Shown: positions 8,111 through 39,618 of the stretch, piece after piece
Layout: every line of letters begins with the position of its first letter
Numbering within the stretch: the first letter of the stretch is position 1
Assembly: GCA_028716485.1 (NCBI GenBank)
Contig: JAQUPS010000012.1
Location: forward strand, 1-45,170
Reading direction: 5' to 3'
Source of the DNA: Patescibacteria group bacterium
Lineage (GTDB): Bacteria > Patescibacteriota > Patescibacteriia > Patescibacteriales > WJLG01
DNA: 45,170 nt
Notes under the pieces: model-generated
The model's database searches: none
Told to the model about the DNA's origin: nothing
The model's input: only the letters and a program-made list of their open reading frames with translations
Made by a program: the position numbers and the translations under genes

Positions 8111-8316
8111 TTGGCGGTTTTTCTGATAAATACGGGATAAAATATTAATTTTAAATTTTAAAATAAATCAAAAAATTAAAATCTTAAATTTGGTTCCCGT
8201 ACAAGCCCCTCGTTAGAGGAGCGCGGCGATGATCGGCGTATTTCACAATCTTTTAAATTTGGTATTTGAAATTTATTTTAAAATTTAAAATTGAGATTTG
8301 TGATTTTAAAATTTTT

Positions 8317-11300
8317 CTATCCTCCCCCGTTGTCATTCCGCCAGCGGTAATGCTGCTGGTCGAGCCAGCTTTTGCGGATCTGAAAAATATTGCTATACGA
8401 ATCTTCGGCAGTGCGCAAGGAGGCGTCGGTGGAATAAAGTTCGCCGGAATAATTGACCGAGGAAGTAGTGAAGGAATTGGCAAAGATGATTTTAAAATCA
8501 ACCGTGCATAAATCAGCGGCGCAAGTGGAAGTGCTCTGCGGCGAAACGGCCGCCGCGCCGTTGGCGTCAGCGCCGGTTTCGGCAAAAACGCCGGTCGAGC
8601 GCGTCCAGGTGAATTTCAAATCATCAAATGGCGAAGAATAATCCAAGCTGTCGGCCAAGCGCAAAGTCACGTCGGTAAGCGCCGCATAACCGTCGACATC
8701 GGCAATCTTGGCGCGGAAATTCCAGGCGCTGGAATTATCAGCCACGGCAATATTGGTTGTCGTGCCGGTGCTTTCCGGATTAACAAACTGCAAAGATTTA
8801 TTGGTCAAATCCGCGTCGGTTTTCGCCGTCACTTCCGTGGCCATCGCCGTATTGCCGAAAGAATCATAAGCCCAGATATTAAAAACGTAATGGGTGTCGG
8901 CGCTTAAGCCACTGACAATCACCGAGCTGGAGCCGTTGAAATCATAAGCGTTCAAAGCCGAATTAACGAACTGCGTATCGCCAGTCGTCACGCCGCTGGT
9001 GCCGGCTTTGTAGAAAATTTTATAAGCGTTAGCTGCCGGTTCGTTGCTGTCCTGGGCAAAATGGGTAATCGGCAAAAGAAGCTGAAGCGATGTTTCCGTT
9101 GAACTGCCGACTGTCAAATTTCCCGAGACGCTCGGCTTGACATTGTCGAGGACGACGACAATGGTTGACGAAACAATCTGATCATCCACGCCGTCATTGG
9201 CGGTGAGGCGCAGGCAATAAGTGCTGCTGGCCGCCGGAACATCGGTTGCCGAGAGCCAGTCGAAGTTAATCGTATTCTCGCCGGTGGAAGTCAAAATATA
9301 ATACGAACTGGTGCCGATACGATAAGTTTCACTGTTGTCGCGCTGAACTGTGCCGAAAGTCGCGGTCAGATTATTGGCATCAATAGTCGCCAAACTCGCC
9401 GAAGTAAAATCACATAAGGAGCCGGCCTGATATTCCAGCTTGGCGCGCAACGTGTTGTCGTCATTGGCGTCATCGGCGGTGAAAGAAATATCCACCCGGC
9501 CGCTGCCGTCGGTTTTTTCCGCGGCCGAATTGAAAGAAGCGGTCGGCGGGTCATTGGCAATCACATCGATGCCCGCGGTCGAGCTGGAACGGTTGCCGAA
9601 AGCATCGTAAGCGAAAAGATTGAAAGTATATTTTAAGCCGGCAGTCAGACCATTGATAGTCGTGGTGGTGGCGCGGTTAAAATTCGCGCTGGCCAAATTA
9701 GCGTCCGATGAAGATCCGAATAAATTTCCGGCTTCGGTAACGGGCGCGCCGTCGTATAGCTTGTAATAAATTTTATATTGCCGGAAATGGGAATCAGTGG
9801 AAGTGGCGGCGAATTTCAAAGTCACACTCGCGCCCGTTTTTGACGACAAAGTTAAATTACCCGGAACAGTCGGCGCCGCGTTATCGATCACCACCGTCGT
9901 CGTCGCCGGCGCAGTCTGGTCGCTGATATTGTCATTGGCAGTCAGGCGCAAGCAATAAGTTCCATCGCCAGCCGGCAAATCCGTTTTGGAAAGCCAGTCG
10001 AATAAAATATTATTCGTTCCGGAAGCGGTATCGATCCAGCCGGTCGAGGTGCCGATTTGATAAATATTTTTATTGGCGATCACCGGCAAACCCAAATCAG
10101 CGCTGACAAAAGTTTCGTCTAAAAGCGGCGCCAGCGGCGAACCGAAATCGCAATGACCGCCCGACTGCGCCACATATTCGATTTTGGCGCGGCAATTATC
10201 GCGGCTTAAATCATTGATGGCGATGGAAACATTAATTTTCCCCGAGCGGTCGGATTTCTCCGCGGCCGAATTGATAATGCCGGTCGGCGGACCTTCGATT
10301 TGCTGGGCGCCGAAAGCGAAAGTCGGATCAGGATAAGAATAATTTCTCGTCTGTACCGCGCCGAATAAATTGGTTTCCGCTCCCCCGCCCGCGGCGCTCG
10401 TGTCTTCATAGTAAGCGTAAAACGGTTTTCCATTAGTGGAAATAATTCTTGAACCGGCCAGATAAGTCGTGGCGTCGGCCGCGCCGAAATAAGCTTTGCC
10501 CGGATAATTTCCAACACCCAAGCAAGTCGAGCTGGAAACGAAATTATTATTCTGGTCATAAACGCTCAACTCAACCGTGCCGGATTCGGGCGCGCAGACT
10601 ACCGCGATATGCGCCGCGTTGGTGGGCAGCATATACTCGGCGGAAAATTCTTTGAACGGCAGAAACATCGTCGACTCGGTGCTGGTTCCTTCGTCCTGCT
10701 GGATAGCGTTGATCGCGCCGCTGATATTGCCGAGGCGAACGGCGTTGCCCGCGCCCTTTACTTCGCCGGTACAGATTTGATTGGTTTGCATTGCTCCCCG
10801 CGCCAAAGAAGAAATGGTCGTTGAAGAATTATTAGAACAATAAATGGAGAAAGAAGACGCGGAACCGGCGCCGATTAAATTGTATCTGGACTTCACGCCG
10901 TAAAGGTCGCTATTGCCAGCCGGATAGCCGAGTAAACTGTCGCCCGGGCCGCTATTGGCGAATGAAAATAAAACCGGTTTGGTCGCTTCCACGATGGCAA
11001 TGCTGTCGGTGGCGATATCCTGCGTTGCCATCCAGGCGCTGCCCGCCGCCACGGAATGAGTTTGTTTCAATGTCGCGCCGTCATAAATCGTGGTGGTGGC
11101 GTCGGCGAACGGCGCGTAGACATTAAAATTTTCCGCGTGCCGAAAAGAAGGAATGACAAAGCTTGTGCCGGTAAAAGAAATCGGAAGCGCCGATTCCAAA
11201 GCCGCGCCCCCTGATAATTTCGCCATCAGCGGACCTTTGGCTTTGATGACTGAATTCGAATTAAAGCCGGTGAACACGGCGGTCTGCTGGCGATTCAAAT

Positions 11301-14019
11301 TAATTACCGTGCCCGAATCCAATTGCACTTGATTGCTGTCGATCAAACTGACGACATTGATCGTCTTGACGGCCGAGGAGCTGGCCGTGTAAAAAATATT
11401 TTGCAGCGAAGAATAAGTGAACGGCGCAAATTGATCGGAAGCGCTGCTGGCGCCGCTGTTGCCGTAATAGAGATAAATCTTGCTGGTCGTCGCGGCCGGA
11501 ATCGAATCGACTTTGATCCAAATCTTCGTCGATGACGCGGCATAATCGAACGATTGAATCCAATAAGGCAATTCGGTTGTCTGGCTGGAATTGGTAAAGC
11601 GGATATCACTGCCGTCGGCTTTGATGTTGCGCCAGAAATCGCGGCTGGTGGACGAAGAAATTTCCAGATAAAGCTGGTGATCGGCGAGCGTGCCCGCATT
11701 GCCGGTGTTATCGATAGTAATCGGCAAACGATAATTCCAGCCCGAATTCCACCAGGGATCAAGCAAGCCATAGCCGTCGTTATTGCCGACCGCTTCAATA
11801 TAGAACTCCCCTTCCGAATTCGGCTGAAAACCGATAACGGCCTTGAAATATTTTACTTGGCCCGGAGCGATGGTCACGCCCTCGGCGGTGGTTTTTTTAT
11901 TAGTGAAATTATCCGGAACTTTTTTGAGCTGCGGACCCAGGCCCAGGATTTTTTGCAGCAAATTTTCCCGCGGCGCGATCGCCTGGCCGCCCAGCGCCAC
12001 TTCCTGCCAGCGGTCGGCGTATTGGATTTTTTCCACCGTGCCGGTCATCACGCCATTAATCCGGCAATAGCGGCGATTGGGGCTCACCTCGTCGCAAGCC
12101 CGCTGTTCTTCGCTTGGATAGCAGCTCCAAATATTTTCCCGTTTATCCCAGCCGTTGGCGCAATCATAAATCTGCGCTTCGTATTTCGGCACTTCAGTCA
12201 GATAAGGACTGTTGGGAATAAGCTGATCCATCTTGACCACCGAGGAGCTGGTGGCGGGAAAATAAAATTGGAAATTCATCTGTTCGTCCCGGAGGCCGGT
12301 ATTCTCGACGCTGAAATACATCTCGGCATTGGTTAAGCCGAAATAATTTTTCTTGTCGCTTTTGATTATCAGATTTTCATTGCTGTTTTCATCGGTCCAG
12401 CTGAAATTTATTTCCCGCCCGTCGATATTCAATTTATCCTTGTCCGTAATTTTCGGTTTTTCTTCCGGCTTGGCCGATCCGTTCTGATAAGAAATTTCCA
12501 CCCAGACGCTGTCGAGATAAGCGCTGAAATTTCCGCCGTCCGGTTCTGTTCCCTGGAATTTCAAACGCAGCTTATCCAAATCACGCCAGTCGTTCAAAAA
12601 CGGCGCGTCAAAACTTAAATATCCGCCGCGATCGGCATTAGAGAGACTGCTTGCGTCAATTTTTCCAAGCTCTCGCCAGACATTACCGCCGCCTTCATCG
12701 GCAAAAGAATACCAGATGACGATCGGCGCGCTGGTTGCGGCCGAATTTTCCTCGGCGCCGGCGCCGGTGGGCGCGAAGAAATCCAAAATCTTTTGCATAA
12801 TCGCGCCCGCGGCCGAACCGCTGTTTTCCGAAGAAGAAGCTATACTGCCGGAATCAGCCATTGGCTGAACCGTTGCGTTATTTTCTATTGTTGAAGAAGC
12901 GATAGCCTTAATTGTCGAGGTTGAAACCTTATTTTTCCGGATATCTTGGGCAATGGCCGCCAGAGAAATTTTGATTTTCGCGCTCTTAAACGGCCCGAAA
13001 AGGATATTGCGGTCATCGGCGGCCGAACCCCATTGCGTTTCCGCCATTGCCAGCTTGCCCAATAATGTCTGGCCAATTTCTTTCTTGCCGGCCGCAAAAA
13101 TATTCTTTAATTCTTTCAGCCATGATACCGGCCCGGCGGAATCCGCGGCCGGCGAACTATTTTCAGCCGGCTGAACAGCCGGCTCTTGAACAGGCTGGGA
13201 ATCGGGCAAATGATTTGGCGTTTCGACCGCCGGAGTTTCATTCGCGGGCGCGGCCGATGAATCAGTGTTAGTGTCCGGCGCGACGGTCGCCGCCGATTCG
13301 GTCGGAGCAGAATTATCCAGCGCCGGAGCGACAGGAGGCTCGGGCTGCGCCGGTAAAGAATTATCCGAAATCGGCGGCGAAGAAATTTGCGCGGCAGGAT
13401 CCGCGGCCGGGGAATCAGCGGCCGGGGAACTGCTATTTTCCAAAGTTGAGGAAGCAATGATTGATTCCGGCGATGAAGATGATTGCAAACCAGCCGGAGA
13501 AATATTTTGTTCCGCGGCAGCGGCCGCGCTGTCGGGATTATTATTTTCTAAAACCGGCTGAGTCGTCGAGGCCGGGTGTTCGATGATGGGCGCGTAATTT
13601 TTAATAAAATCTTGCGTGGTGAAATTATCGCAAATCAGCGCTTGCTGGCCGCCGGAATAAATCACGGAATTGTCAGCGCTGAAATCAGCAGCCGCGCCAG
13701 CCTCGGTTATTTGCGGCGCGCCCAAAACCCGATCAACCCCAACCCAAGAATTTCCCGCCCCCTCGACTTGCGAAGCGTTGGCGTAAAAATCAACCGTGGC
13801 GATATTATCCGTGCCGGTCGCGTGCAAAGTTTTATTAAGAACGACGACAAATCCGCCGATAGCGAACAGATAAAAAGCGATAATCAAAACTTTCGCCAGC
13901 AGCGGAGAGATAACAAAACTCGGGCGGATATTTTTTGTCCGTTTTTTCCGAGGCTGGATACCAAAAAACAGAGGCCTCGCTTTTCCCGCTTTTGCATGCG
14001 CTGAAAGTCCCCTTTGCAT
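8317..14019 (-). CDS. Large secreted protein with DUF2341-like domain and FN3-like repeats; C-terminal LDQQHYRWRNDNGGG
   Basis: ORF 8317..14034; ATG at 14019 preferred over TTG at 14034. N-terminal TM (AKVLIIAFYLFAIGGFVVVL), low-complexity Ser/Ala/Pro linker, WWNSGWNYRLPITIDNTG...IYLYYGNSGASS typical of DUF2341, FN3-like repeats. Confidence 0.88.
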   Translation of the reverse strand: MQRGLSAHAKAGKARPLFFGIQPRKKRTKNIRPSFVISPLLAKVLIIAFYLFAIGGFVVVLNKTLHATGTDNIATVDFYANASQVEGAGNSWVGVDRVLGAPQITEAGAAADFSADNSVIYSGGQQALICDNFTTQDFIKNYAPIIEHPASTTQPVLENNNPDSAAAAAEQNISPAGLQSSSSPESIIASSTLENSSSPAADSPAADPAAQISSPPISDNSLPAQPEPPVAPALDNSAPTESAATVAPDTNTDSSAAPANETPAVETPNHLPDSQPVQEPAVQPAENSSPAADSAGPVSWLKELKNIFAAGKKEIGQTLLGKLAMAETQWGSAADDRNILFGPFKSAKIKISLAAIAQDIRKNKVSTSTIKAIASSTIENNATVQPMADSGSIASSSENSGSAAGAIMQKILDFFAPTGAGAEENSAATSAPIVIWYSFADEGGGNVWRELGKIDASSLSNADRGGYLSFDAPFLNDWRDLDKLRLKFQGTEPDGGNFSAYLDSVWVEISYQNGSAKPEEKPKITDKDKLNIDGREINFSWTDENSNENLIIKSDKKNYFGLTNAEMYFSVENTGLRDEQMNFQFYFPATSSSVVKMDQLIPNSPYLTEVPKYEAQIYDCANGWDKRENIWSCYPSEEQRACDEVSPNRRYCRINGVMTGTVEKIQYADRWQEVALGGQAIAPRENLLQKILGLGPQLKKVPDNFTNKKTTAEGVTIAPGQVKYFKAVIGFQPNSEGEFYIEAVGNNDGYGLLDPWWNSGWNYRLPITIDNTGNAGTLADHQLYLEISSSTSRDFWRNIKADGSDIRFTNSSQTTELPYWIQSFDYAASSTKIWIKVDSIPAATTSKIYLYYGNSGASSASDQFAPFTYSSLQNIFYTASSSAVKTINVVSLIDSNQVQLDSGTVINLNRQQTAVFTGFNSNSVIKAKGPLMAKLSGGAALESALPISFTGTSFVIPSFRHAENFNVYAPFADATTTIYDGATLKQTHSVAAGSAWMATQDIATDSIAIVEATKPVLFSFANSGPGDSLLGYPAGNSDLYGVKSRYNLIGAGSASSFSIYCSNNSSTTISSLARGAMQTNQICTGEVKGAGNAVRLGNISGAINAIQQDEGTSTESTMFLPFKEFSAEYMLPTNAAHIAVVCAPESGTVELSVYDQNNNFVSSSTCLGVGNYPGKAYFGAADATTYLAGSRIISTNGKPFYAYYEDTSAAGGGAETNLFGAVQTRNYSYPDPTFAFGAQQIEGPPTGIINSAAEKSDRSGKINVSIAINDLSRDNCRAKIEYVAQSGGHCDFGSPLAPLLDETFVSADLGLPVIANKNIYQIGTSTGWIDTASGTNNILFDWLSKTDLPAGDGTYCLRLTANDNISDQTAPATTTVVIDNAAPTVPGNLTLSSKTGASVTLKFAATSTDSHFRQYKIYYKLYDGAPVTEAGNLFGSSSDANLASANFNRATTTTINGLTAGLKYTFNLFAYDAFGNRSSSTAGIDVIANDPPTASFNSAAEKTDGSGRVDISFTADDANDDNTLRAKLEYQAGSLCDFTSASLATIDANNLTATFGTVQRDNSETYRIGTSSYYILTSTGENTINFDWLSATDVPAASSTYCLRLTANDGVDDQIVSSTIVVVLDNVKPSVSGNLTVGSSTETSLQLLLPITHFAQDSNEPAANAYKIFYKAGTSGVTTGDTQFVNSALNAYDFNGSSSVIVSGLSADTHYVFNIWAYDSFGNTAMATEVTAKTDADLTNKSLQFVNPESTGTTTNIAVADNSSAWNFRAKIADVDGYAALTDVTLRLADSLDYSSPFDDLKFTWTRSTGVFAETGADANGAAAVSPQSTSTCAADLCTVDFKIIFANSFTTSSVNYSGELYSTDASLRTAEDSYSNIFQIRKSWLDQQHYRWRNDNGGG

Positions 14020-14255
14020 ATTTTGTATATACAATATTATTATACCATTTCCAGAGCCTTTTTTGCCGGGAAATACGGCATTTTTTATTAATTTTTTTTC
14101 TCTATTATTAGTTAAATAATTTCAGACCAATTCTGTCTAAAAAATTAAGCCTAATTCCGACATCTGAAATCTGAAATCTAAAATCCGGATTGTGGATAAC
14201 TTGTGTTCACATTTTTTGTACAGTTTGACAAAAAAAATTTCCTGCATATAAAAAA

Positions 14256-14278
14256 GCGGCTAATAAAAAATTAGCCGC
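14256..14278 (-). terminator. Intrinsic terminator of 14291..14836 gene
   Basis: gcggctaa/ttagccgc stem followed by T-run on the minus strand. Confidence 0.8.
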
Positions 14279-14290
14279 CGACAGTCAAAA

Positions 14291-14836
14291 CTATTCTTGA
14301 CTGGACGTTTTAAGCACCCTTTTAAAAGTGCCTTTTATTTCAATTTTCTTGAATTGAAATAAATCTTCAAATTCTTGTTCAGAAAGAACCTTCGAACATG
14401 CATTTAAAAATTCTTCCGACTCATACTCGGCGACGGAAAGATAATAATCCTTATCCAGCTTCCCATTTTCTAACGCCTTTCTTAGAGGCTCAAGTTTAAG
14501 GTGCATTTTTTTCAAACTTGTTCCAATAATCTCTCTTTTCTCCGCAGGAAAATCAACTCCGAGCGCAAAATCAATTCTATTTTCAAATTGTTCCGCTATT
14601 TCTTCGGCGATACCTTTCCCTGGATTCTCTTTTTGCTTTTTAGCAAGCTCAAAATCATTCCTGGAGTAAAAATCTCCTCTAAACTTTGAAACTTCGTCAC
14701 TCCTTATTGGTCCCGTAAGCATAGCCGCGCTAAAATCTGGGTCATCACCGTGCCTGTACTTTTTTTCATCCCCATTAGCAGAAGAAAAAAACATGCCTAC
14801 AAAAACCATCAAAACAAAAATAAGATCGGCTCTCAT
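14291..14836 (-). CDS. Small secreted hypothetical protein
   Basis: ATG at 14836 with AAGGAGG SD; MRADLIFVLMVFVGMFFSSANG signal peptide. Confidence 0.8.
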   Translation of the reverse strand: MRADLIFVLMVFVGMFFSSANGDEKKYRHGDDPDFSAAMLTGPIRSDEVSKFRGDFYSRNDFELAKKQKENPGKGIAEEIAEQFENRIDFALGVDFPAEKREIIGTSLKKMHLKLEPLRKALENGKLDKDYYLSVAEYESEEFLNACSKVLSEQEFEDLFQFKKIEIKGTFKRVLKTSSQE

Positions 14837-14849
14837 CGTATCCTCCTTG

Positions 14850-15284
14850 TTAGTTGCAATTACAACTACTGAAATTTGTACCGTATATCCCCCAAGTCGC
14901 AACAGAAAATGCGTAACCAGTAACATTGCAATTATTCAATGTTTGTCCGGTGGGATGCAGAACTCTGTTAGAATGTTGGTGGCAAACTCCATGAACACCG
15001 TAATTAAGAGTACAATAGGCATAACAAGCTGCCTTGTTACCATCACCATACCCCCCAACAACCGGGGTGCCACCTGTTTTACTGGCATTTGGCGGACAAG
15101 TATAGCAAACGCAATTACTGTAACTGCCAACGCAAACATATGTATGGTCAAGCCACTGAAAAGGGGCCGCGGCAACAGGTTTTTTGCTTGCCCATATATA
15201 CACTGAAGCTGAAACGTCGACAGTCATAATAACGAATACGCCAAAAAAAATTGACAAAAGAAAAAAAATCCTCTTGCTAAGCAT
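14850..15284 (-). CDS. Secreted Cys-rich hypothetical protein (DHTYVCVG...GVCHQHSNRVL)
   Basis: ATG at 15284 with AAGGAG SD; signal peptide; many Cys residues. Confidence 0.75.
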   Translation of the reverse strand: MLSKRIFFLLSIFFGVFVIMTVDVSASVYIWASKKPVAAAPFQWLDHTYVCVGSYSNCVCYTCPPNASKTGGTPVVGGYGDGNKAACYAYCTLNYGVHGVCHQHSNRVLHPTGQTLNNCNVTGYAFSVATWGIYGTNFSSCNCN

Positions 15285-16049: not shown

Positions 16050-17768
<1,719 letters not shown>

Positions 17769-17787
17769 ATTCGGGGATTAGGATTTT

Positions 17788-18083: not shown

Positions 18084-18145
18084 TTCAATTATCAATCTCC
18101 AATCTTCAATGATCACAAATTGAAGATTGTCGATTGAAGATTAAT
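18084..18145. repeat. Heptad inverted-repeat element D in groESL leader
   Basis: caatctc caatctt caat arm 18084-18110; inverted arm 18119-18145, 21/27 paired, 8-nt loop. Confidence 0.7.
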
Positions 18146-23198: not shown

Positions 23199-23271
23199 GA
23201 AAATATTATAGCACAAAAATAAGTCAGTAAGAACAAAATTGGAGCATTATTAATAAAAAAATCGCTGAATT

Positions 23272-23346
23272 GTTACATTGTTACATTGTTGTTTTGCTTA
23301 AGCGGCTTGTTCTCCATCCAACAATGTAACAATTTGGCAATGTAAC
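23272..23346. repeat. Short-period inverted-repeat element E (8-bp unit)
   Basis: GTTACATT x2 GTTG (23272-23291) versus CAACAATGTAAC (23319-23330) and CAATGTAAC (23338-23346). Confidence 0.7.
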
Positions 23347-23621: not shown

Positions 23622-23763
23622 TCGCTTCATTAACGTAGCTATTATTAGCTTAACTGATTTTAGCTTACCACCTCCGTCCGCAAAAAGCAATCTTGACAAC
23701 CAAGGGTAAAAAGGGCTGAAAGGTTGAAATAATGCCCGGCTTAGGCTATGCTATAAATTAAAT

Positions 23764-23838
23764 AATGCTAAATGATGAATGCTAAATGCTAAATTTTAAA
23801 ATAATATAGCATTAATCATTTAGCATTTAGCATTCATT
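23764..23838. repeat. Heptad inverted-repeat element F abutting murA start
   Basis: AATGCTA heptads; perfect 20-bp arms 23775-23794 / 23818-23837; ATG at 23839. Confidence 0.85.
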
Positions 23839-25107
23839 ATGTCCAAATTCATCATCAACGGCCCGGCGCGATTAAAGGGCGAAATCGAGGTTAAGGGCGC
23901 TAAAAACGCGGCTCTGAAGATTATTCCGGCCGCGATTTTATCGACCGAAAAAATCACCATCAGCAATCTTCCGCAAATCGAGGATGTCAAATTATCGTTG
24001 GCGCTGCTGGAAGATTTGGGAGCTAAAATCGACTATCCGCGGCCGGGAACGGCGATAATCAACGCTTCGGGCATCAATAAGACCGGATTGAACCCTGCGC
24101 TGGCTAACAAATTCCGCGCCTCGATTATGTTTGTCGCGCCGCTTTTGGCGCGCTTTGGCGAAGCAACATTCCCTCATCCGGGCGGCTGCATCATCGGCGC
24201 CGGCAAAAGAGACATCGATGTTTTCTTGGACGGTTTCGCGGCCTTGGGCGCGGAAACAAGCGTCAAAGATAATTGCTATCACATCAAAGCCAAAGGCGGC
24301 CTGTCTGGCGGCGAATTCTTTTTTTATAAATTGATCGCCGTCACCGCTACCGAATCAATGATCATGGCGGCTGTTTTAGCGAAAGGCAAAACCGTTCTGA
24401 AAAATTGCGCCATGGAACCGGAAATAAAAGCGCTGGCCGATTATCTTAATTCCTGCGGCGCGAAAATTTCCAACGCCGGCACTCCGACTATTACTATTGA
24501 AGGCGTGGCCAAAATTTCCGCCGGTTCTTTCGCCGTCATGCCTGATCGCATCGAAACCGGTTCTTTCGCGATTATGGCCGCGGCCACCCGCTCGGAAATC
24601 TTAATCAAAAATTGCGTCCCCGAACATATCCGGGTGCTCTTGGAAATTTTCAAAAACCGCTTGGGCATTCCTTTTGAGGAAGGCTCGGATTGGATAAAAA
24701 TCAAACCGGCCAAAAAAATCAGGCCGTTCGGAATCAAGACGCATGAGTATCCGGGATTCCCGACTGATTTGCAGCAACCCTATTCGGTGCTGATGACGCA
24801 AGCCGAAGGATCTTCTTTAATCCACGAAACTATTTTTGACCGCCGGCTTTTATACGCCGATTTATTGTCGCAAATGGGCGCCGATATTATTATGTGCGAC
24901 CCGCACCGCATCGTCGTCAACGGGCCGGCTCGGCTTTGCGGCCATAAGCTTACCAGTCCGGATTTACGCGCCGGCATCGCGCTGGTAATCGCCGCGCTGG
25001 TGGCGGAAGGCCGCACGGAAATCGATAATATTTATCAAATCGAGCGCGGCTATGAAAACATCGCCGCCAGACTCGCCTCGCTTGGCGCTGACATAATCAA
25101 GGTATGA
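23839..25107 (+). CDS. murA: UDP-N-acetylglucosamine 1-carboxyvinyltransferase
   Basis: GPARLKGEIEVKGAKNAALKIIPAAIL; PHPGGCIIGAGKRDIDVFLDGFAALGAE; EYPGFPTDLQQP. Confidence 0.96.
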   Translation: MSKFIINGPARLKGEIEVKGAKNAALKIIPAAILSTEKITISNLPQIEDVKLSLALLEDLGAKIDYPRPGTAIINASGINKTGLNPALANKFRASIMFVAPLLARFGEATFPHPGGCIIGAGKRDIDVFLDGFAALGAETSVKDNCYHIKAKGGLSGGEFFFYKLIAVTATESMIMAAVLAKGKTVLKNCAMEPEIKALADYLNSCGAKISNAGTPTITIEGVAKISAGSFAVMPDRIETGSFAIMAAATRSEILIKNCVPEHIRVLLEIFKNRLGIPFEEGSDWIKIKPAKKIRPFGIKTHEYPGFPTDLQQPYSVLMTQAEGSSLIHETIFDRRLLYADLLSQMGADIIMCDPHRIVVNGPARLCGHKLTSPDLRAGIALVIAALVAEGRTEIDNIYQIERGYENIAARLASLGADIIKV

Positions 25108-27337: not shown

Positions 27338-27412
27338 TTATGTAGTATGGTGTATGTAGTATGGTGTATGGAATTTTTAAAGACCATACTGCATACTACC
27401 AGCTACCAAAAA
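27338..27412. repeat. Heptad inverted-repeat element G
   Basis: TGTAGTATGGTGTA x2 tandem; gtagtatggtgtatgg (27356-27371) / ccatactgcatactac (27384-27399), 14/16. Confidence 0.8.
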
Positions 27413-28648: not shown

Positions 28649-28730
28649 AGGTAGCAAGTGTCATGTATCAAGTAACATGACTTCTAAATTTATGTTACCT
28701 GTTACATGATACCTGCCACCTGCTACGTGT
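28649..28730. repeat. Heptad inverted-repeat element H
   Basis: Left GTAGCAA GTGTCAT GTATCAA GTAACAT; right (revcomp) GTAGCAG GTGGCAG GTATCAT GTAACAG GTAACAT: one extra heptad. Confidence 0.8.
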
Positions 28731-29613
28731 TTTTCTTGCTCTCAAACTTTAACTTTCCAAAAACGAAAGTTAAGAACAACCCGACCGGCCACGCCAGCCA
28801 AAGAATAAAATATTGCCAGAACGGCTGCCACTTGCGGAAATATTTGAGCATCGAAGCGCGAAAATATTTTTGCGCCGTCAGCCGGTTTACTTGCGTGAAA
28901 CTTTGTCCGACCAAATCATAACAGCGCGCCGCCGGAGTGTACCAAACTTCCAGTCCGGCGGCCTTGAAAGTCCGGCACAGATCAACGTCTTCAAACCAGA
29001 TAAAAAATCTTTCATCAAGCAATTCGCCTCTTCGCAACCGCTCGGATGGTAAAGTTTTATCCAAAGCAGAACGGCGGATAATCATCGCGCTGCCGCGCAC
29101 GCTATCGACAATCGCCGGCTGGTCATAATCAAACCCAATGCAAAGATAGCGGTCTAAAATATGGGTGAACAAATACGGCCATTTTAAAACTATTGCCAGC
29201 TGATTGAATAACCCGGGGAATTTTCTCACCTGGCCTTTGATGTCGCTGCCGTCTTTATCCAGCAATCGACAGCCAGCCATGGCCGCCTGCTCTTTCGCTT
29301 TAAGCCAATGAAGCAGATTATCGACAGTCAAAGGAAAAACAAAATTATCCGGATTAAGCAAAAAAATAAAGTCGCCGCTTGTCTGGCGGAAAGCCTGATT
29401 GACGGCTTTCGCAAAGCCAAGATTACCGTCATTGGCGATCAATTTAACTTCGGGAAAATCTTTCCCAACCATTTCCGCCGAACCATCGCGGGAACCGTTA
29501 TCAACCACAAAAACTTCAAACTTAAAATTCGTCCGGCTTAAAAGCAGATGTGATAAGCATCTATTTAATTTCTCCCGGACATTCCAGGAAACGATGATGA
29601 TTGAGAGATCCAT
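28723..29613 (-). CDS. Glycosyltransferase family 2
   Basis: MDLSIIIVSWNVREKLNRCL, VVDNGSRDGSAEMV, LLNPDNFVF. Confidence 0.9.
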   Translation of the reverse strand: MDLSIIIVSWNVREKLNRCLSHLLLSRTNFKFEVFVVDNGSRDGSAEMVGKDFPEVKLIANDGNLGFAKAVNQAFRQTSGDFIFLLNPDNFVFPLTVDNLLHWLKAKEQAAMAGCRLLDKDGSDIKGQVRKFPGLFNQLAIVLKWPYLFTHILDRYLCIGFDYDQPAIVDSVRGSAMIIRRSALDKTLPSERLRRGELLDERFFIWFEDVDLCRTFKAAGLEVWYTPAARCYDLVGQSFTQVNRLTAQKYFRASMLKYFRKWQPFWQYFILWLAWPVGLFLTFVFGKLKFESKKNT

Positions 29614-29625
29614 ACTTCTCATAGC

Positions 29626-29778
29626 ACACATCACATAACACGTAACAGTGCTAAATTTATCTTGACAAAAAAAATTTTTCTTCCTATAAACCAAGTCTGG
29701 TAATAAAAATTGTTACATGTTACATGTTACATGTTACATGTTACATGTTACATGTTACGTGTTACGTGTTACGTGTTA
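29626..29778. repeat. Heptad element I with perfect VNTR (TGTTACA)6(TGTTACG)3
   Basis: 29711-29773 exact heptads; opposing arm cacatcacataacacgtaacagtg 29627-29650. Confidence 0.9.
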
Positions 29779-30040
29779 TTTTCACCAATTTAATCCTCGC
29801 CGTCGCTCCGCTGATAATATTAGCTGAACCGCGCGGCACGCCGAATTCTTCGGCTAAAAAATCTATCAGGGTTTGATTCGCCTTGCCCTTTTCCGGCGCA
29901 GCGGCTAAGGCGATTTTAATCGTTTTGTCGGCCATTTCGCCCTTGATTTCCGTCTTGGCTGAACCCGGAATCGCCTTGATTCTTAAATATACTTGCCCAT
30001 TCTTAGCCAATTCTTTTTTGTATTCTGTTAACATTTTCAA
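29762..30040 (-). CDS. DUF167/YggU family protein
   Basis: VYLRIKAIPGSAKTEIKGEMADKTIKIALAAAPEKGKANQTLIDFLAEEFGVPRGSANIISGATARIKLVKI; last codons ITRNT* lie in the heptad VNTR. Confidence 0.85.
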   Translation of the reverse strand: MKMLTEYKKELAKNGQVYLRIKAIPGSAKTEIKGEMADKTIKIALAAAPEKGKANQTLIDFLAEEFGVPRGSANIISGATARIKLVKITRNT

Positions 30041-32405: not shown

Positions 32406-32410
32406 ACTAT

Positions 32411-32782: not shown

Positions 32783-32801
32783 ATTTTTTCTCTTTTAATT
32801 T

Positions 32802-33383
32802 TTATTTCTTCACCAACTCCACGGTTTCGATTGTCGCATCGGTTGTCGGGTGGTCGTTTTCATTTACCGGCAAAGCTTCAATTTTACTAACTACCTCCAT
32901 GCCCTTAACAACGCGGCCAAAGTTTACATGCTTGCCGTCAAGCCAGGGGGTGGCCGGCGCCGTGACGATGAAAAATTGCGAACCGTTGGTGTTTGGTCCG
33001 GAGTTGGCCATCGCCAGCGAGCCGCGGACTAATTTTTCGTTATTGAATTCGTCAGCGAATTGATAGCCCGGACCGCCCATGCCGTCGTTGGACCAATCAT
33101 TGTCTTTGGAATTCGGGTCGCCGCCCTGAATCATAAAATTCGGGATAATGCGATGGAATTTGGTGCCGTCGTAAAAACCTTCCTGCGCGAGCTTTAAAAA
33201 ATTATCAACCGTGTTCGGCGATTCAGCGCCGTAAAATTCAACTTGGATGTCGCCCAGGTTGGTGTGCAAAATCGCGCCTTGATATTCGGAGGCCATACTT
33301 TTTACTGATTGCGCCGCTGGTTGAGCGCAACCGCTCAAAACAAACGCGCCAATTAAAATAATGAATAAAAATTTCAGTTTCAT
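32802..33383 (-). CDS. Cyclophilin-type peptidyl-prolyl isomerase, lipoprotein
   Basis: FVLSGC lipobox; FYDGTKFHRIIPNFMIQGGDP; GPNTNGSQFFI. Confidence 0.93.
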   Translation of the reverse strand: MKLKFLFIILIGAFVLSGCAQPAAQSVKSMASEYQGAILHTNLGDIQVEFYGAESPNTVDNFLKLAQEGFYDGTKFHRIIPNFMIQGGDPNSKDNDWSNDGMGGPGYQFADEFNNEKLVRGSLAMANSGPNTNGSQFFIVTAPATPWLDGKHVNFGRVVKGMEVVSKIEALPVNENDHPTTDATIETVELVKK

Positions 33384-33391
33384 AAAAATTT

Positions 33392-33484
33392 TAGTAGTAC
33401 GCAGTAAGTAGTATGTAGCATGGTCTAAAATGATAAATTTTAATCAGCCCCATACTGCTTACTGCATACTACATGCTACGGCTA
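33392..33484. repeat. Heptad inverted-repeat element J
   Basis: gtagtacgcagtaagtagtatg (33394-33415) / catactgcttactgcatactac (33451-33472), 20/22; overlaps the rseP-like stop codon. Confidence 0.85.
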
Positions 33485-34762
33485 AAATATCTTTTGTAGC
33501 AACCCCACCAGCGGCGCGGTAAATTGCGAAACGTCCTTGACGGTAATGACTAAAACTAAAAGTATTAAGGCGATAAAGCCGGCATTATGAATCACCGCTT
33601 CCACTTCCCGCTTCACCGGACTGCCTTTGATTTTTTCAATCAGTAAAAAGATAATCCGTCCGCCGTCAAGCGCCGGCAGCGGCAGAAAATTAACCACCGC
33701 CAGATTGAGCGACAGCAAACCGACGAATTGCAGCAGATAAACAAAACCCATCCGCGCGTATTGGCCGGTCATATTGGCAATGCCGACCGGCCCGGCGATT
33801 TCCGCGGATACGCCATGGCCGAGAATTAAATTTTTGAGCAATTCATAAAACGCGACGATGATCACCCAGAGCAAAATCGCGGCCGTAGTGATTCCTTTCC
33901 AAATCGCCAGATACCAGGGATACCTGACCAAGCCGGTGTTGATGATAGCGATGCCGATTTCGCCTTTGCCGTTTTTATTTATCGGCGTAATTTTAAAATC
34001 GGAAATTTTATTATCGCGTGAAATTTGATAAGTCAATTCCTTGCCGGCGCGAGAATTGACGTAATTCTGCAAATCCGCGTCGCGGGTAAATTTATTTCCG
34101 TCAATCGAGATTACCACGTCCCCCGCTTTCAGGCCGGCCTTGGTCGCCGGCGTATCCGGCAGAACCTGAACGATTTGAATTTTTTCATCGCTGATATAGG
34201 CTTTGCTGGTACTATCCTCGACGCTCTGCGGCAAGCCGATCATATAACCGATAGCAAAAAGCGCCATGGCCAAAACGATATTCATAATCACGCCGGCGGA
34301 AATAATGGAAATCCTCTGCCAGATTTTCTTGGCGACAAAACTGTCCTCATCAGCCTCGTCTTCGCCGTTCTCACCCTTGATCTTGCAGAATCCGCCCAGC
34401 GGCAGCCAATTTATCGAGTAAACCGTATCATCCGCTTTTAATCCTTCTTCCGCGTCGGGCAATCGCTCGCCCCAGAAAAATTTCCAGCGTTTTATTTTTT
34501 CAATAATGCCCACTTCGGTGATCTCTTCATGAATTTTTTTCTCGCCGAACATATTTTCTTCAACTTCAAGCTCCTCTTCTTCGGCGAGCGGCGTCATTTT
34601 TTGGCCGCTGAATTTCAAAAATCCGAAAAGGCGCGGCGGCAAACCAAAGCCGAATTCCTCGACCTTGACGCCCATCTTCCGCGCCGTCCAAAAATGCCCG
34701 AGCTCGTGGACGAAGACGAGGACTGAAAGAACTATGATGAATGTTACTATCGTTAAAATCAT
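33482..34762 (-). CDS. rseP: Site-2 protease, RseP/M50 family with PDZ
   Basis: FVHELGHFWTARKMGVKVEEFGFG; PDZ PATKAGLKAGDVVISIDG; NFLPLPALDGGRI. Confidence 0.9.
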   Translation of the reverse strand: MILTIVTFIIVLSVLVFVHELGHFWTARKMGVKVEEFGFGLPPRLFGFLKFSGQKMTPLAEEEELEVEENMFGEKKIHEEITEVGIIEKIKRWKFFWGERLPDAEEGLKADDTVYSINWLPLGGFCKIKGENGEDEADEDSFVAKKIWQRISIISAGVIMNIVLAMALFAIGYMIGLPQSVEDSTSKAYISDEKIQIVQVLPDTPATKAGLKAGDVVISIDGNKFTRDADLQNYVNSRAGKELTYQISRDNKISDFKITPINKNGKGEIGIAIINTGLVRYPWYLAIWKGITTAAILLWVIIVAFYELLKNLILGHGVSAEIAGPVGIANMTGQYARMGFVYLLQFVGLLSLNLAVVNFLPLPALDGGRIIFLLIEKIKGSPVKREVEAVIHNAGFIALILLVLVITVKDVSQFTAPLVGLLQKIF

Positions 34763-34787
34763 AATAATTATTTTGCTAAATAAAAAG

Positions 34788-34872
34788 TCGTATTTCGTAT
34801 TTCGTATTTCGATTCTTTTCAACCTGCGAAGATTGATAAAAAATACGAGATACGGGATACGGGATACGAATT
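34788..34872. repeat. Heptad inverted-repeat element K
   Basis: CGTATTT x3 left; right revcomp CGTATCC CGTATCC CGTATCT CGTATTT; adjoins frr stop. Confidence 0.85.
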
Positions 34873-35425
34873 AAATTGTCATTATCTCTTTCTCTTTTTT
34901 ATCTCTTACCCCTTTAAGTTCCTCATTGATTTTTTTCACTTCCTCTTCCAATTCTTCCATAAAACGGAACCGATCATCTTCGGAAATGGCCTTGTCTTTT
35001 TCAGCCTTCTCAATCGCGTTTTTAATCGCTTCCCGATTCTGCCGCGCCGAAACTTTGGCCTGTTCGGTTTTTTCATTCAATTTTTTTACCAAATCCTTGC
35101 GGTTTTCTTCGGTCATCGCCGGAATCGTCAGGCGGATTTTATCGCCTTCGTTCACCACGCCCAAACCCAAGCCGGCCTCGATAATCGCCTTCTCCACGTC
35201 CTTGGTTATATTCTTATCCCAAGGAGAAACGATCAAACTGCGCGCGTCCGCCACCACGATATTGGCCAATCCGACCAGCGGAGTTTTGGCGCCATAAGCC
35301 TCAATATTTATTCCTTCCAAAATAGCGGTATTGGCGCGGCCGGTGCGGAGCGAATTGATATCTTTCTTAAAAAATTCCACCGCCCGCTGAAACTCTCCCT
35401 TTTTAGTTTGCAAAAATTGGTTCAT
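34871..35425 (-). CDS. frr: Ribosome recycling factor
   Basis: SLRTGRANTAILEGINIEAYGAKTPL; DKIRLTIPAMTEENRKDLVKKLNEKTEQAKVSARQNRE. Confidence 0.95.
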   Translation of the reverse strand: MNQFLQTKKGEFQRAVEFFKKDINSLRTGRANTAILEGINIEAYGAKTPLVGLANIVVADARSLIVSPWDKNITKDVEKAIIEAGLGLGVVNEGDKIRLTIPAMTEENRKDLVKKLNEKTEQAKVSARQNREAIKNAIEKAEKDKAISEDDRFRFMEELEEEVKKINEELKGVRDKKEKEIMTI

Positions 35426-35433
35426 ATTTTTGT

Positions 35434-35567
35434 CACAAATCCGAAGCGCGAAATTATAAATCCGAAACAAATCTGAATGCTCAAAACGCTAAATTCGAAA
35501 TGTTTCGAATTTTTGTCATTTAAATTTAGGATTTGTTTCGGATTTCGCGCTGAGAATTTCGAATTTA
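35434..35567. repeat. Heptad inverted-repeat element L
   Basis: aaatccgaaacaaatc (35458-35473) / gatttgtttcggattt (35530-35545), perfect 16 bp; heptads AAATCCG, AAACAAA, AAATTCG. Confidence 0.8.
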
Positions 35568-35603
35568 ATTATTTATTCCCTCCTCCATATTTTTTTATTT
35601 TAA

Positions 35604-35640
35604 TGCTTGCATGCTCCATGCTTTCATGTTCTTATACTCC
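35604..35640. repeat. Single-arm heptad tract M
   Basis: Revcomp AACATGA AAGCATG GAGCATG CAAGCAT; no opposing arm found. Confidence 0.5.
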
Positions 35641-35645
35641 GCGTG

Positions 35646-36737
35646 TCATATCCCGAACGCTCCGCTGCTCGCCTGATATTTCTTCATTCCCATAAATATC
35701 ACGTTGGTCTCGTCCGGCTTGATCAGCAAGCGCTGGCCGGCGCGGGTGGACGGCAATTTTTTTGTCCGCCAGCTGGCGCCGCCGTCGGCTGAACTGTAAA
35801 ACGTGGTATTGGTTACATAATATATTTCTCGCGGATCTTTGGGACTGACCGCCAACGAATTGATTGATGCCTGCTGTTCCGGGGTTACCAGTTTTATTCT
35901 CGTCCAAGTATCGCCCGCATCGGCGGATTTTAACAGACCATAGGCCGTGGCCGCGAAAAGCAAGCCGTCGCTACCCGGCGTCGCCACCAGTGAAACTATA
36001 TTAAAACTATTTTTGAATTCTGTCATCTTGTCTTTGAGCGGCGTCCAATTGTCGCCTGAATCGGTCGAACGATAAATGCCTTCGCTTACCGTGGTGACAA
36101 AAACTTTCCGGCTGTCCTGCGGGCTTAAAATAATCTGATTGACGCTGGAACCGGAGCGATAAACCGTCATCCAATGGTCGCCGCGGTCAATACTGCGCCC
36201 GATTTCGCCGCGGGAATTGCCGAAATAAATCCGGTGCGCGTCATAAAAATCCACAGCCAGCGCGTTGATCTGCGTAGTCGGGTCGTTATCAAAATAGATT
36301 TGCGTCCAAGTGCGGTTGCAATCGCCGGAACGATAAACTTTATTGCCGGCTGTCGCGTAAATAATGCATTTATCGTCTGGACTGACGACGACCGCGTTGA
36401 TTTTAGTTTCATTCAAGCCGGCGGCTTTGGTCCAGCCGCTGCCGACACTATAAGTATAATAAAGCCCCTGCGCCGCGCTGCCGAAATAAATTGCGTTATA
36501 ATCCTCCGGATCCAAAGCCAGCGATGAATCGTCGAGCGAATTAATGCTTGAAACTCCGCCGACAGTCGGCACGGCATTGACCTGCCGCCAGGATACGCCC
36601 TTGTCCAGACTCACCCAGAATCCGCCATCGACCGCGGAAGTATCGTTGGATTTGAAAGAGATGGAACAGCCGGCGCCCATCGTCAGTATGGCCGCCAGAC
36701 AAAGCGCGAAAGCGATGATGTTTTTTTGATTTAGCAT
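35646..36737 (-). CDS. BNR/sortilin-like beta-propeller lipoprotein
   Basis: LTMGAGC lipobox; repeated YRSTDSGDNWTPL, KSADAGDTWTRI, SSADGGASWRT. Confidence 0.82.
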   Translation of the reverse strand: MLNQKNIIAFALCLAAILTMGAGCSISFKSNDTSAVDGGFWVSLDKGVSWRQVNAVPTVGGVSSINSLDDSSLALDPEDYNAIYFGSAAQGLYYTYSVGSGWTKAAGLNETKINAVVVSPDDKCIIYATAGNKVYRSGDCNRTWTQIYFDNDPTTQINALAVDFYDAHRIYFGNSRGEIGRSIDRGDHWMTVYRSGSSVNQIILSPQDSRKVFVTTVSEGIYRSTDSGDNWTPLKDKMTEFKNSFNIVSLVATPGSDGLLFAATAYGLLKSADAGDTWTRIKLVTPEQQASINSLAVSPKDPREIYYVTNTTFYSSADGGASWRTKKLPSTRAGQRLLIKPDETNVIFMGMKKYQASSGAFGI

Positions 36738-36742
36738 ATTTT

Positions 36743-36820
36743 AAGTAGGCAGCATGTAGTAAGTAGTATGTAGTATGGATTTAATACCCTACTGCATGCT
36801 ACATACTGCATACTACTAAA
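36743..36820. repeat. Heptad inverted-repeat element N
   Basis: Left GCAGCAT GTAGTAA GTAGTAT GTAGTAT; right revcomp GTAGTAT GCAGTAT GTAGCAT GCAGTAG; overlaps holB stop. Confidence 0.8.
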
Positions 36821-37856
36821 TATTTATCGCGATATTTTCCAGAACTAATTTCGGATTAACATTGGCGCGCAGATATTTTTCTCCCCGCCGCAGCAATCCG
36901 TTCAATTCCAGCAAGCGCGAACCGTTCAGCTTATTTTTCAAGCCGTCCATCATCGCCCGCAGCGGCTCGTGCTGGATCAAGTCGCCGTTGTTGGCATTGA
37001 GCAAAAGCAGGTCGCGCAACAAACCTTGCCAGACATTCAAAACGTCCAGCGCGGCTTCAACTTTATTTTCTTCTTCTTTGCCGCCGGCAATCTTGTCCAC
37101 GGCCGACAGGCGCTCGTTCAGATTTTCCTTAAAAAAATGTAAAAACGTTTCAGTCTTGGACAGATAGCTCTGATAAAATTCTTGGTCCTCGAAAAATTTA
37201 GCCGCCAACGCCGGCCGGCCCGCGCTCAAACGGGAAATATTTTTGGCCTGCACTCGCGGACAGGCCAGATCATTAATCAAATAATCATAAATCACCGCGT
37301 TCGACACCGGCAAAAAATTCAAAACCTGGCTGCGGGAAACGATCGTCGCCGGAATTTTTTCCAAGCGCGCCGCGGTGAGGATTATCACCACCTTCGGACG
37401 GGGTTCTTCCAAAGTTTTCAGCAAAGCATTGGCGGCGCTCTCGCTCAAATCATCGGCTTCCTTGATAATGCCGACTTTATATGAATTCATGAAAGAGCTC
37501 ATTTCTAAAATCCTGATGAATTCCCGCACCTGCTCGATGGAAATATTTTTCTTTTCCGCTTCTTTTTTCAGCAGATGAAAATCGCCATGCAAAGTTTCGA
37601 AACCATTATCCGCTCCCGGATTATTCTGCATCTGCCGGCAGGACGGACAGGCTCCGCAGGCCAAAGAAAAAACTCCGATTTTTTGCTTCTGGCACAACAG
37701 GCACTTGGCGAAAAATACAGCCGCCGCGGTCTTGCCCAAGTCTTTCGGCCCTAAAAAAATATAAGTATGAGCGACTTTGCCATTGGCCAGGCTTTTCTCT
37801 AAAAAATCGGTAATCGGACGATTACCGGCGAGCGGCCAGCCGTTTTTTATGTTCAT
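36816..37856 (-). CDS. holB: DNA polymerase III delta prime subunit
   Basis: HTYIFLGPKDLGKTAAAVFFAKCLLC; CGACPSC; ADDLSESAANALLKTLEEP. Confidence 0.87.
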   Translation of the reverse strand: MNIKNGWPLAGNRPITDFLEKSLANGKVAHTYIFLGPKDLGKTAAAVFFAKCLLCQKQKIGVFSLACGACPSCRQMQNNPGADNGFETLHGDFHLLKKEAEKKNISIEQVREFIRILEMSSFMNSYKVGIIKEADDLSESAANALLKTLEEPRPKVVIILTAARLEKIPATIVSRSQVLNFLPVSNAVIYDYLINDLACPRVQAKNISRLSAGRPALAAKFFEDQEFYQSYLSKTETFLHFFKENLNERLSAVDKIAGGKEEENKVEAALDVLNVWQGLLRDLLLLNANNGDLIQHEPLRAMMDGLKNKLNGSRLLELNGLLRRGEKYLRANVNPKLVLENIAINI

Positions 37857-37981
37857 TTTCATTCCTTCCATATTATTTATCTTACCATTGCGCCATCGTT
37901 AAAGCAAGCCATTTCGCTTGATTTTTAGCGGCATTACTGGTAGATTGATAACATAATAAGAATCAACGCAATATCCAGGAT

Positions 37982-38141
37982 TAAATCCTAAACACGAAAT
38001 CCTAAATTCTAAACAAACCCGAAAACCGAAACACGAAATTCAAAATAAACTTCCAGCTAAGACGAATAAATAAGCGATTGACGGACAAACCAGCTGTTTC
38101 GGATTTGATATTTCGAATTTGTTTAGGATTTAGAGTTTGAT
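37982..38141. repeat. Heptad inverted-repeat element O
   Basis: AAATCCT AAACACG AAATCCT AAATTCT AAACAAA CCCGAAA ACCGAAA; taaatcctaaaca (37982-37994) / tgtttaggattta (38120-38132), perfect. Confidence 0.8.
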
Positions 38142-38159
38142 ATAATCTCCCTTATTTTT

Positions 38160-39518
38160 ATGAAAAGCAATATCAAACAGTTTGCCCTTCTTTTGGGGGA
38201 CATACTGATAATGAACTTGGCGCTTTATCTGGCTCTTTGGCTGCGCTACGGAGAAAATCCGGCTTTAGGAAACTGGGGAATAAACTGGGGGCCTTTCGCG
38301 GTTGTTTTTATTATTTGGCTGATCGCTTTTTACATTTCCAATCTTTATAATTTGCATCTGGCCATAAACAACGGCTTGTTTTTCCAAAGGATAACGCAAA
38401 GTTTTGCCATCGCCGCGATTCTGGCCGTAATTTATTTTTATCTGGCTCCGCCGGACAAGCTTACTCCCAAAACCAATCTGGCCGTTTTTTTCGTTGTTTT
38501 CGCCGTCCTGTTCATCGTCTGGCGGCAATTATTCAATTCGCTGCTCAAATCATATTTGCCCCGGACCAACCTGGCGGTCATCGGTTTCAATAATTTAGTT
38601 GAAAAAATAATTATGGAATTGAAACAAAAACCGCAATTAGGCTTATCCCTTTCTTTCATCCTGGACGAGAAAGCAACCGGCAAAGAATTGAACGGCACGC
38701 CGATTTTCAACAACATCAACGACTTGCCGGCGCTGATTGAAAAAAGAAAAATCAACAACGTGATACTCGCCGCCGCGCCCGACTCGCAGGAATTGCGCGC
38801 CTTGCTTTTTGAATGTCTGCCCTTGAAAATAACTTTTATCAATTTGGCGGATTTTTACGAAAACATTGCCGGCAAGATACCTTTGGAAGTCATTAATAAG
38901 ATGTGGTTCTTGGAAAATCTCAATGAAGGCAATAAAAATAATTTTGATCTGTTCAAGCGGACGGCCGATTTGGTTCTGGCCTTGCTGATTTTTATCATCA
39001 CCTTGCCCTTCTGGCTGATCATCGCCCTGATCATCAAGCTGGAAAGCCGCGGGACGATATTTTTCGTGCAGACCAGAGCCGGCGAGCGGGGAAAAAATTT
39101 TAGGATGATAAAATTCCGCACGATGAAAACCGAAAATAACGATCATTCGCCGACAACCGATGGTGATCGCCGCGTTACCCGCTTTGGTTCATTCTTGCGC
39201 AAAACCCGTTTGGACGAAATCCCCCAGGTGCTTAACATCATCAAGGGCGAAATGAGTTTTGTCGGCCCGCGTCCGGAACGGCCGGAATTGATCGAGACTT
39301 TGGAAAAGCAGATCCCTTTTTACCGCGAACGGATGCTGGTCAAGCCCGGAGTTACCGGCACCGACCAGATTTCCGGCGAATATCATTCCCCTTCTTATGA
39401 AGACACGATGAAAAAATTGCAGTATGATTTATACTATATCAAAAACCGCTCGGTTTATCTGGAACTGTCGATTATCCTAAAAACGATTTCTACGGTATTA
39501 TCAAGAGCGGGACGATAG
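38160..39518 (+). CDS. Polyprenyl glycosylphosphotransferase (sugar transferase)
   Basis: N-terminal TMs; FRMIKFRTMKTENND; RFGSFLRKTRLDEIPQVLNIIKGEMSFVGPRPERPE; KPGVTGTDQISG. Confidence 0.94.
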   Translation: MKSNIKQFALLLGDILIMNLALYLALWLRYGENPALGNWGINWGPFAVVFIIWLIAFYISNLYNLHLAINNGLFFQRITQSFAIAAILAVIYFYLAPPDKLTPKTNLAVFFVVFAVLFIVWRQLFNSLLKSYLPRTNLAVIGFNNLVEKIIMELKQKPQLGLSLSFILDEKATGKELNGTPIFNNINDLPALIEKRKINNVILAAAPDSQELRALLFECLPLKITFINLADFYENIAGKIPLEVINKMWFLENLNEGNKNNFDLFKRTADLVLALLIFIITLPFWLIIALIIKLESRGTIFFVQTRAGERGKNFRMIKFRTMKTENNDHSPTTDGDRRVTRFGSFLRKTRLDEIPQVLNIIKGEMSFVGPRPERPELIETLEKQIPFYRERMLVKPGVTGTDQISGEYHSPSYEDTMKKLQYDLYYIKNRSVYLELSIILKTISTVLSRAGR

Positions 39519-39520
39519 GC

Positions 39521-39618
39521 GGTAAATCAGAAATCAGATATTGGAAATTAGGAAAAAATAAACCGTAAAAAACAACCCCTGATTTCAAATATCCAATTTC
39601 CAATTTCAGATTGGGGCG
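39521..39618. repeat. Heptad inverted-repeat element P
   Basis: AAATCAG AAATCAG ATATTGG left; revcomp right AATCTGA AATTGGA AATTGGA TATTTGA AATCAGG. Confidence 0.75.

Follow-up and report, generated by a model that had tools for sequence, protein, structure and literature searches.

The intergenic hairpins described here, whose arms are tandem arrays of degenerate 7-bp units (heptads), are best explained as ORF-less copies of small mobile elements built around a PF05635 open reading frame, related to the intervening sequences (IVS) of 23S rRNA and inserted between protein genes. We put the probability of this reading at about 85%. The window, 45,170 nucleotides long, comprises an entire contig (C12) of a 99% complete draft genome of 1.15 Mb from a Patescibacteria group bacterium. 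PF05635 is the family of the 23S rRNA IVP, or S23 "four helix bundle protein", and its members are called IVPs below.

Period-7 inverted repeats in intergenic DNA

Identity at lag 7 in the window's intergenes is 0.340, against 0.284 in the Markov-1 shuffles that served as the null (z 7.6), and the excess recurs at lags 14 (z 6.2) and 21 (z 3.4); the window's coding DNA is flat at lag 7. The genome-wide tests, covering 1.12 Mb with genes called and 688 intergenes, gave z values of 29.5, 17.8 and 11.8 at lags 7, 14 and 21, and of 9.8 at lag 8. The original prediction, of a lag-7 excess over shuffled intergenic sequence, thus holds at both scales. Strong lag-7 segments are present in 254 of the 688 intergenes (11 expected) and strong lag-8 segments in 54 (8.7 expected); lag 6 yields 22 against 8 expected, and lags 4, 5 and 9-12 lie within about twofold of chance. 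The inverted arms also exceed chance, as had been anticipated: inverted repeats (IRs) reaching the threshold score of at least 16 occur in 186 intergenes genome-wide where 7 are expected, and their arms, picked blind to period, show identities of 0.564 at lag 7 and 0.507 at lag 14, against about 0.3. That the heptad unit varies by site while period and inverted layout persist is likewise confirmed, for what is a family of intergenic elements. The sites in the window are given below; no strand is assigned to any of them, and fold z refers to RNA folding against shuffles.

8140..8299 (arms 8140-8188 and 8251-8299): ORF-less hairpin of the AAATTTT family, found as an IR; 43 nt at 90.7% to an arm of IVP element C1:42419, E 4e-10
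14162..14185: one-sided ATCTGAA tandem array, a solo arm or decayed element, found by TRF; no hairpin, fold z -0.4
17714..17786: ORF-less hairpin with AAATCCTAATC-type units, found as an IR; fold z -4.9
18087..18142: ORF-less hairpin, unit AATCTTC / GAAGATT, IR of 24+24 nt; fold z -5.2
23261..23346: ORF-less hairpin, period-8 unit ATTGTTAC, found by TRF and as an IR; fold z -4.7
23759..23839: ORF-less hairpin, unit AATGCTA, abutting the ATG of an EPSP-synthase-family gene at 23839; fold z -6.4
27339..27409: ORF-less hairpin, unit GTAGTAT(GG); 30 nt at 86.7% to an arm of IVP element C19:12544, E 7e-6
28651..28731: ORF-less hairpin, units GTAGCAG/GTAACAT; 50 nt at 80% to an arm of IVP element C11:49618, E 1.7e-7; fold z -8.3
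29621..29779: TGTTACA array of 9.7 copies (29711-29778; TRF 98%) with a weak inverted partner at 29621-29647 (IR of 27 nt, 81%); 24 nt at 92% to an IVP arm, C11:49618
33393..33479: ORF-less hairpin, unit GTAGTAT; 50 nt at 76% to IVP element C19:12544, the match extending inward past the arm, E 1.8e-7; fold z -5.8
34788..34868: ORF-less hairpin, unit CGTATTT, between frr and rseP; 34 nt at 91% to an arm of IVP element C19:9626, E 1.7e-7; fold z -7.2
35437..35566: ORF-less AAATCCG-family element with conserved centre, fitting the cross-phylum consensus; fold z -6.5 for the whole site, 35435-35567
36754..36822: ORF-less hairpin, unit GTAGTAT; 41 nt at 83% to an arm of IVP element C19:12544, E 5e-8; fold z -3.0
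37982..38138 (arms 37997-38038 and 38097-38138): AAATCCT-family element with a foreign loop, placed by IR and family membership
39524..39612: ORF-less hairpin, units AAATCAG / ATTTCCA, found as an IR; fold z -3.7

The roughly 14 window sites that had been proposed were right in essence, except that the array at 14162-14185 lacks an inverted partner and the long, near-perfect TGTTACA array has only the weak one listed.

Inverted heptad arms enclose IVP genes

In an all-against-all comparison of intergenes, CGTATTT arms were seen to run directly into the ATG of an IVP ORF. PF05635 has 12 matches in the window's genome. The first nine IVPs examined all lie within heptad inverted arms, of the GTAGTAT, CGTATTT (three and a variant), AATGCTA, GTAACAT and AATTTTT (two) types. 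With an improved HMM, an IR scoring at least 16 was found around 10 of 10 distinct intact IVP elements of this genome, a count that leaves out five further HMM rows (fragments, a frameshifted C3 element, itself armed, and the Avd of a diversity-generating retroelement, DGR). A single IVP homologue of the genome lacks heptad arms, the Avd-like gene next to the reverse transcriptase of the DGR on C15. All seven IVP ORFs scored in the congener have heptad inverted arms, and among loci from relatives an IR flanks 27 of 30, with a best period of 7 or 8 in 26 of those; control genes have a flanking inverted repeat in 24 of 571 cases. A solved structural relative of the IVP is 2gsc (E 1e-23). No nuclease, transposase or reverse transcriptase domain is known in the family, which weighs against the mobile-element reading.

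Four complete IVP elements, three with CGTATTT and one with GTAGTAT arms, are packed into 4.5 kb at C19:8482-12906. The DGR (C15:25048-26213) comprises a reverse transcriptase, the Avd-like IVP homologue and a C-type-lectin-like variable protein. A second reverse transcriptase (C14:4564-4998), flanked by an HsdM/HsdS-like gene and a nuclease-like gene, possibly marks a defence locus.

A complete element consists of a 5' arm of three to six tandem units of 7 (or 8) bp, then a PF05635 ORF of about 120 aa whose ATG lies at or just past that arm's inner end, and finally the arm in inverted orientation. The ORF lies downstream of a co-directional gene in 17 of 17 cases in the genus, in 22 of 22 chromosomal cases from relatives and in 11 of 14 annotated plasmid cases, and is therefore likely to be expressed by read-through.

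ORF-less hairpins share arms with IVP elements

In the window's genome, 84 of 143 ORF-less heptad hairpins match an IVP arm of the same genome, and in the congener 65 of 102 do so. The corresponding figures are 64 of 534 and 48 of 540 for other intergenes, and 28 of 677 and 23 of 642 for shuffled sequence; hairpins thus match at five to seven times the rate of other intergenes. The approximately 41% of the genome's own ORF-less hairpins with no match to the IVP arms compared count against the IVP-element reading. The ORF-less unit families of each genome reappear as arms of its own IVPs, as do the AATTAGTT octads of the congener. Within the window, positions 23764-23787 (AATGCTAAATGATGAATGCTAAAT) of the AATGCTA hairpin are identical in 24 of 24 nt to the 5' arm of IVP element C3:77655, and TTAAAGACCATAC, inside the 3' arm of the hairpin at 27339..27409, resembles TTTAAGACCATAC of C19:12544. 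An IVP ORF with AAATCCT arms, the family of the element at 37982..38138, is carried by a Terrybacteria contig. In the GTAGTAT family, the motif TTTARACC is found just inside the 3' arm of complete and ORF-less copies alike, as internal deletion would leave it.

Since IVP ORFs are armed in the same families as the window hairpins, the latter are best read as ORF-less relatives of IVP elements, a link that rests on shared arms and layout rather than on a deletion event seen in this genome. The window copies may have arisen by internal deletion or by co-mobilisation. Among relatives, heptad density is higher in IVP-bearing genomes (42 segments per 28 kb) than in IVP-less ones (4 per 10 kb), but this accord with IVP copy number is one of direction only (genome-level p 0.16) and counts against the reading.

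Insertion and turnover

Nostocales plasmids offer gene pairs in occupied and empty forms, with 5-bp target duplications, GTAAT and TTCTA. At the first pair the occupied form reads AAAAAGTAAT-element-GTAATTAAC and the empty form AAAAAGTAATTAAC; Nostoc linckia has the empty form, Trichormus and Scytonema the occupied one, and Nostoc C052 retains no more than the left arm and the beginning of the ORF. At the second pair the occupied form is GGTTCTA-element-TTCTAGTTATG and the empty form GGTTCTAGGTTATG. The target-site duplication looked for in a transposable or MITE-like element is thus found for complete Nostocales plasmid elements at two sites, being clear in two of the four empty-site comparisons made. 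In Picosynechococcus PCC 7003, a type III-B CRISPR operon holds an IVP element (L331 992-1348) between its cas10 and cmr3 genes; PCC 7002 lacks the element, but the junction is too diverged to be read. In the window's own genus, hairpin ends show no excess of 5-bp duplications (46 of 202, 42.5 expected), perhaps because the ends are ill-defined and old.

Turnover in the genus was followed by comparing orthologous intergenes with those of the congener. The IVP at C17:12012 has its closest congener counterpart (73% identity) at another site, and at the syntenic position the congener has a gap of 19 bp. At two further sites, an IVP in one species corresponds to an ORF-less hairpin from a different unit family in the other; at one more, both species have related IVPs (66%) whose arms differ. 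At the frr/rseP site, occupied in the window by a CGTATTT hairpin, the congener has a period-8 AATTTTCA hairpin. Over 228 syntenic intergenes, hairpin occupancy is correlated between the two species (odds ratio 4.6, p 6e-8), but at the 41 sites with a hairpin in both, arm likeness has a median of 0.26 against 0.24 for random pairs, 7 sites exceeding the random 95th percentile. The comparison with a close relative, proposed in advance as a check, therefore has two sides: sites stay occupied and the unit usually changes. Co-occupancy with unlike arms implies either rapid re-insertion at permissive sites or rapid rewriting of the two arms.

A more far-reaching reading, to which we give less than an even chance, treats IVP elements as a transposable-element class of their own that lacks a recognised transposase: the IVP would drive insertion with a 5-bp duplication, both arms would be periodically rewritten to a genome-specific 7- or 8-bp unit, and the heptanucleotide repeats of many phyla would mostly be their remains. 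The IVP protein itself may take part in the mobility of the element.

Transcription and a possible host function

In RNA folding, 9 of 12 window hairpins were more stable than every shuffle (z -3.0 to -8.3), and for a tenth site (39520) 1 of 200 shuffles did as well. A search of Rfam matched the window to no curated RNA model, and the heptad elements of ten cross-phylum loci gave no match either. A Shine-Dalgarno-like motif precedes 14% of predicted start codons genome-wide and 5% of those abutted by a heptad arm.

An alternative that draws on these folds is that the hairpins are kept for a function in host mRNA, as terminators, processing sites or protection of 3' ends within operons. It would account for the greater frequency of heptad hairpins between co-directional genes (0.40) than between convergent ones (0.18) and for the co-occupancy in two species, and the genome has an RNase III gene. 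We nevertheless consider it unlikely, although the hairpins may have such a role secondarily. The arms are AT-rich, abut start codons and are followed by no U-tract, which sets them apart from intrinsic terminators, and unit sequence and site content turn over freely. Arm mismatches oriented to the genes include no excess of G-U over A-C (184 against 184; 131 against 143), so that G-U is not preferred on the transcribed strand and there is no sign of selection for RNA pairing. The lack of such a sign also counts against the IVP-element reading. RNase III cuts the arms of rRNA IVS in other bacteria (PMC4990558), and by analogy the transcribed arms would fold into long duplexes whose cleavage by RNase III would spare the host operon.

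Unit families and the origin of the arms

The arms of one site had been described as more alike than those of different sites and ascribed to local homogenisation by slippage and quasi-palindrome correction. Greater likeness within a site holds for looser or mixed unit families; in tight families, arms resemble each other equally within and between sites (0.72 against 0.73 for CGTATTT, 0.80 against 0.80 for AATGCTA). Handedness is fixed in each family: CGTATTT is on the 5' arm in 10 cases to 0, and orientation is as constant for AAATCCG (9 to 0), AATGCTA (8 to 0) and, in the congener, AATTAGTT (13 to 0). Moreover, variant units are ordered differently in the two arms of a site. Together these three features argue against site-by-site copying of arms; dispersal of whole elements would give them.

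An origin by neutral mutation, in which polymerase slippage makes the heptads and template switching adds the second arm at each site independently, is therefore improbable, although parts of it have merit. Heptamers are the commonest long simple repeat in many genomes, according to Mrazek 2007 as cited in PMC4679880; unit copy number differs among Coxiella strains; and, because orthologous sites retain a hairpin but swap its unit, some rewriting of arms must occur. Local homogenisation predicts neither the handedness and arm similarities above nor a protein-coding core and target duplications, and for complete elements the empty and occupied sites already contradict it.

Other phyla and plasmids

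Matches to the AAATCCG-family pattern were found in Acidobacteria, Planctomycetes, Verrucomicrobia, Omnitrophota, Elusimicrobia, Bacteroidota, Chloroflexi, Patescibacteria and Methanophagales. A common arrangement, in which a run of three to four heptads is followed by a 4-nt step, further heptads and a near-palindromic centre, applies to up to 26 of 97 matches of a CGGATTT scan, the other 71 being simple tandem arrays and not elements. PF05635 is encoded by 27 of 28 other-phylum genomes with the CGGATTT pattern and by none of 14 control genomes. In Acidobacteria SZAS-13, perfect (CGGATTT)n-loop-(AATCCGA)n hairpins fill stop-to-start gaps at four loci, with a handedness opposite to that of the Patescibacteria AAATCCG family. 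Four loci from Planctomycetes and others carry long simple arrays, (GGATTTC)n or (GGATTTA)n, that lack an inverted partner.

On named plasmids (Nostoc, Trichormus, Calothrix, Picosynechococcus, Azospirillum), 13 of 16 IVPs examined have period-7/8 inverted arms. The STRR heptamers of heterocystous cyanobacteria had been cited as the nearest parallel, though one not organised in this way; the parallel is pertinent, but on Nostoc, Trichormus and Aulosira plasmids IVP ORFs do lie within inverted heptad arms. Heptad or octad arrays flank an IVP in direct rather than inverted orientation on a Pseudanabaena plasmid and in Gemmatirosa. Searches for IVPs in phages and viral contigs gave no matches.

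Relation to known repeats and elements

The hairpin class is not wholly new: it joins the known intervening sequences of 23S rRNA. In Coxiella, three tandem GACAGAT units, variable in number among strains, precede the S23 ATG, and RNase III cuts the 28-bp stem at the first repeat (PMC4990558). The elements described here share with the IVS of Coxiella burnetii and others the inverted-repeat stem round a PF05635 ORF, the tandem heptamers directly 5' of its start codon and the sense orientation within a transcription unit. Complete copies encode PF05635 within a terminal inverted-repeat stem, and the window copies share their arms without the ORF. Known IVS, however, sit in 23S rRNA helices, whereas these elements lie between protein genes, many per genome and in many unit families, are mostly ORF-less, and in cyanobacterial plasmids have target duplications. 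Because of their location they are IVS-like elements rather than IVS in the strict sense.

Short, ORF-less, dispersed inverted repeats with coding parents recall MITEs and REPINs, from which the present elements differ in having period-7/8 arrays of changing unit as arms and a parent without a recognised transposase. The STRR heptamers and the heptads in P6b of Nostoc trnL are likewise degenerate, those of P6b standing on both arms of a stem (PMC4476775); P6b is intronic and without an IVP. The TAACTGA repeats of Beggiatoaceae (MacGregor 2015) are intergenic heptamers just 5' of start codons; they have a single unit and are nearly always direct, with one indirect repeat in 169 sets.

The class 1-3 "putative global regulator binding sites" of Geobacter metallireducens, read as IHF/HU sites (Aklujkar 2009, PMC2700814), have the same anatomy: multicopy pairs of arrays with three to five tandem 7- or 8-mers each, one array per strand and variably spaced. 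As compared by description only, they differ in that they come from one genome and that no link to IVPs was drawn. Extending that reading to the present hairpins, as paired sites for an IHF/HU-like protein, has very little to recommend it beyond the shared layout: the unit is conserved neither across species nor across sites, unlike a binding site, and the ORF core and insertion behaviour are left unexplained.

Telomerase-like or reverse transcriptase-driven addition of repeats at broken ends joined head to head would fit the (U)n-loop-rc(U)n layout, the fixed handedness, the unrelated loops and the two reverse transcriptases of the genome, but the loop is often an IVP ORF, and IVP-rich genomes without RVT_1 (G011, 100% complete with 9 IVPs and no reverse transcriptase, G008 and G026) led us to reject it as scarcely credible. 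Equally hard to credit is movement of REP/REPIN-type elements by a Y1 (RAYT/IS200-like) transposase, suggested by one Y1_Tnp in the genome and GTAG in one unit family: other families lack GTAG, the congener has 11 IVPs and G002 has 7 with no Y1_Tnp (PF01797) in either, and the 5-bp target duplication seen is, to our knowledge, not a feature of Y1 transposition.

Significance

No description of a link between heptad hairpins and IVPs was found in a search of the open-licence literature. PF05635 proteins are frequent in environmental bacteria and no function is known for them; heptamer repeats, for their part, have been recorded from many genomes, with no consensus on how they arise. Should the two be parts of a single mobile element, each would account for the other. 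The long-suspected mobility of 23S rRNA IVS would then be open to direct test, and a large share of intergenic sequence in some members of the window's lineage would gain an identity.
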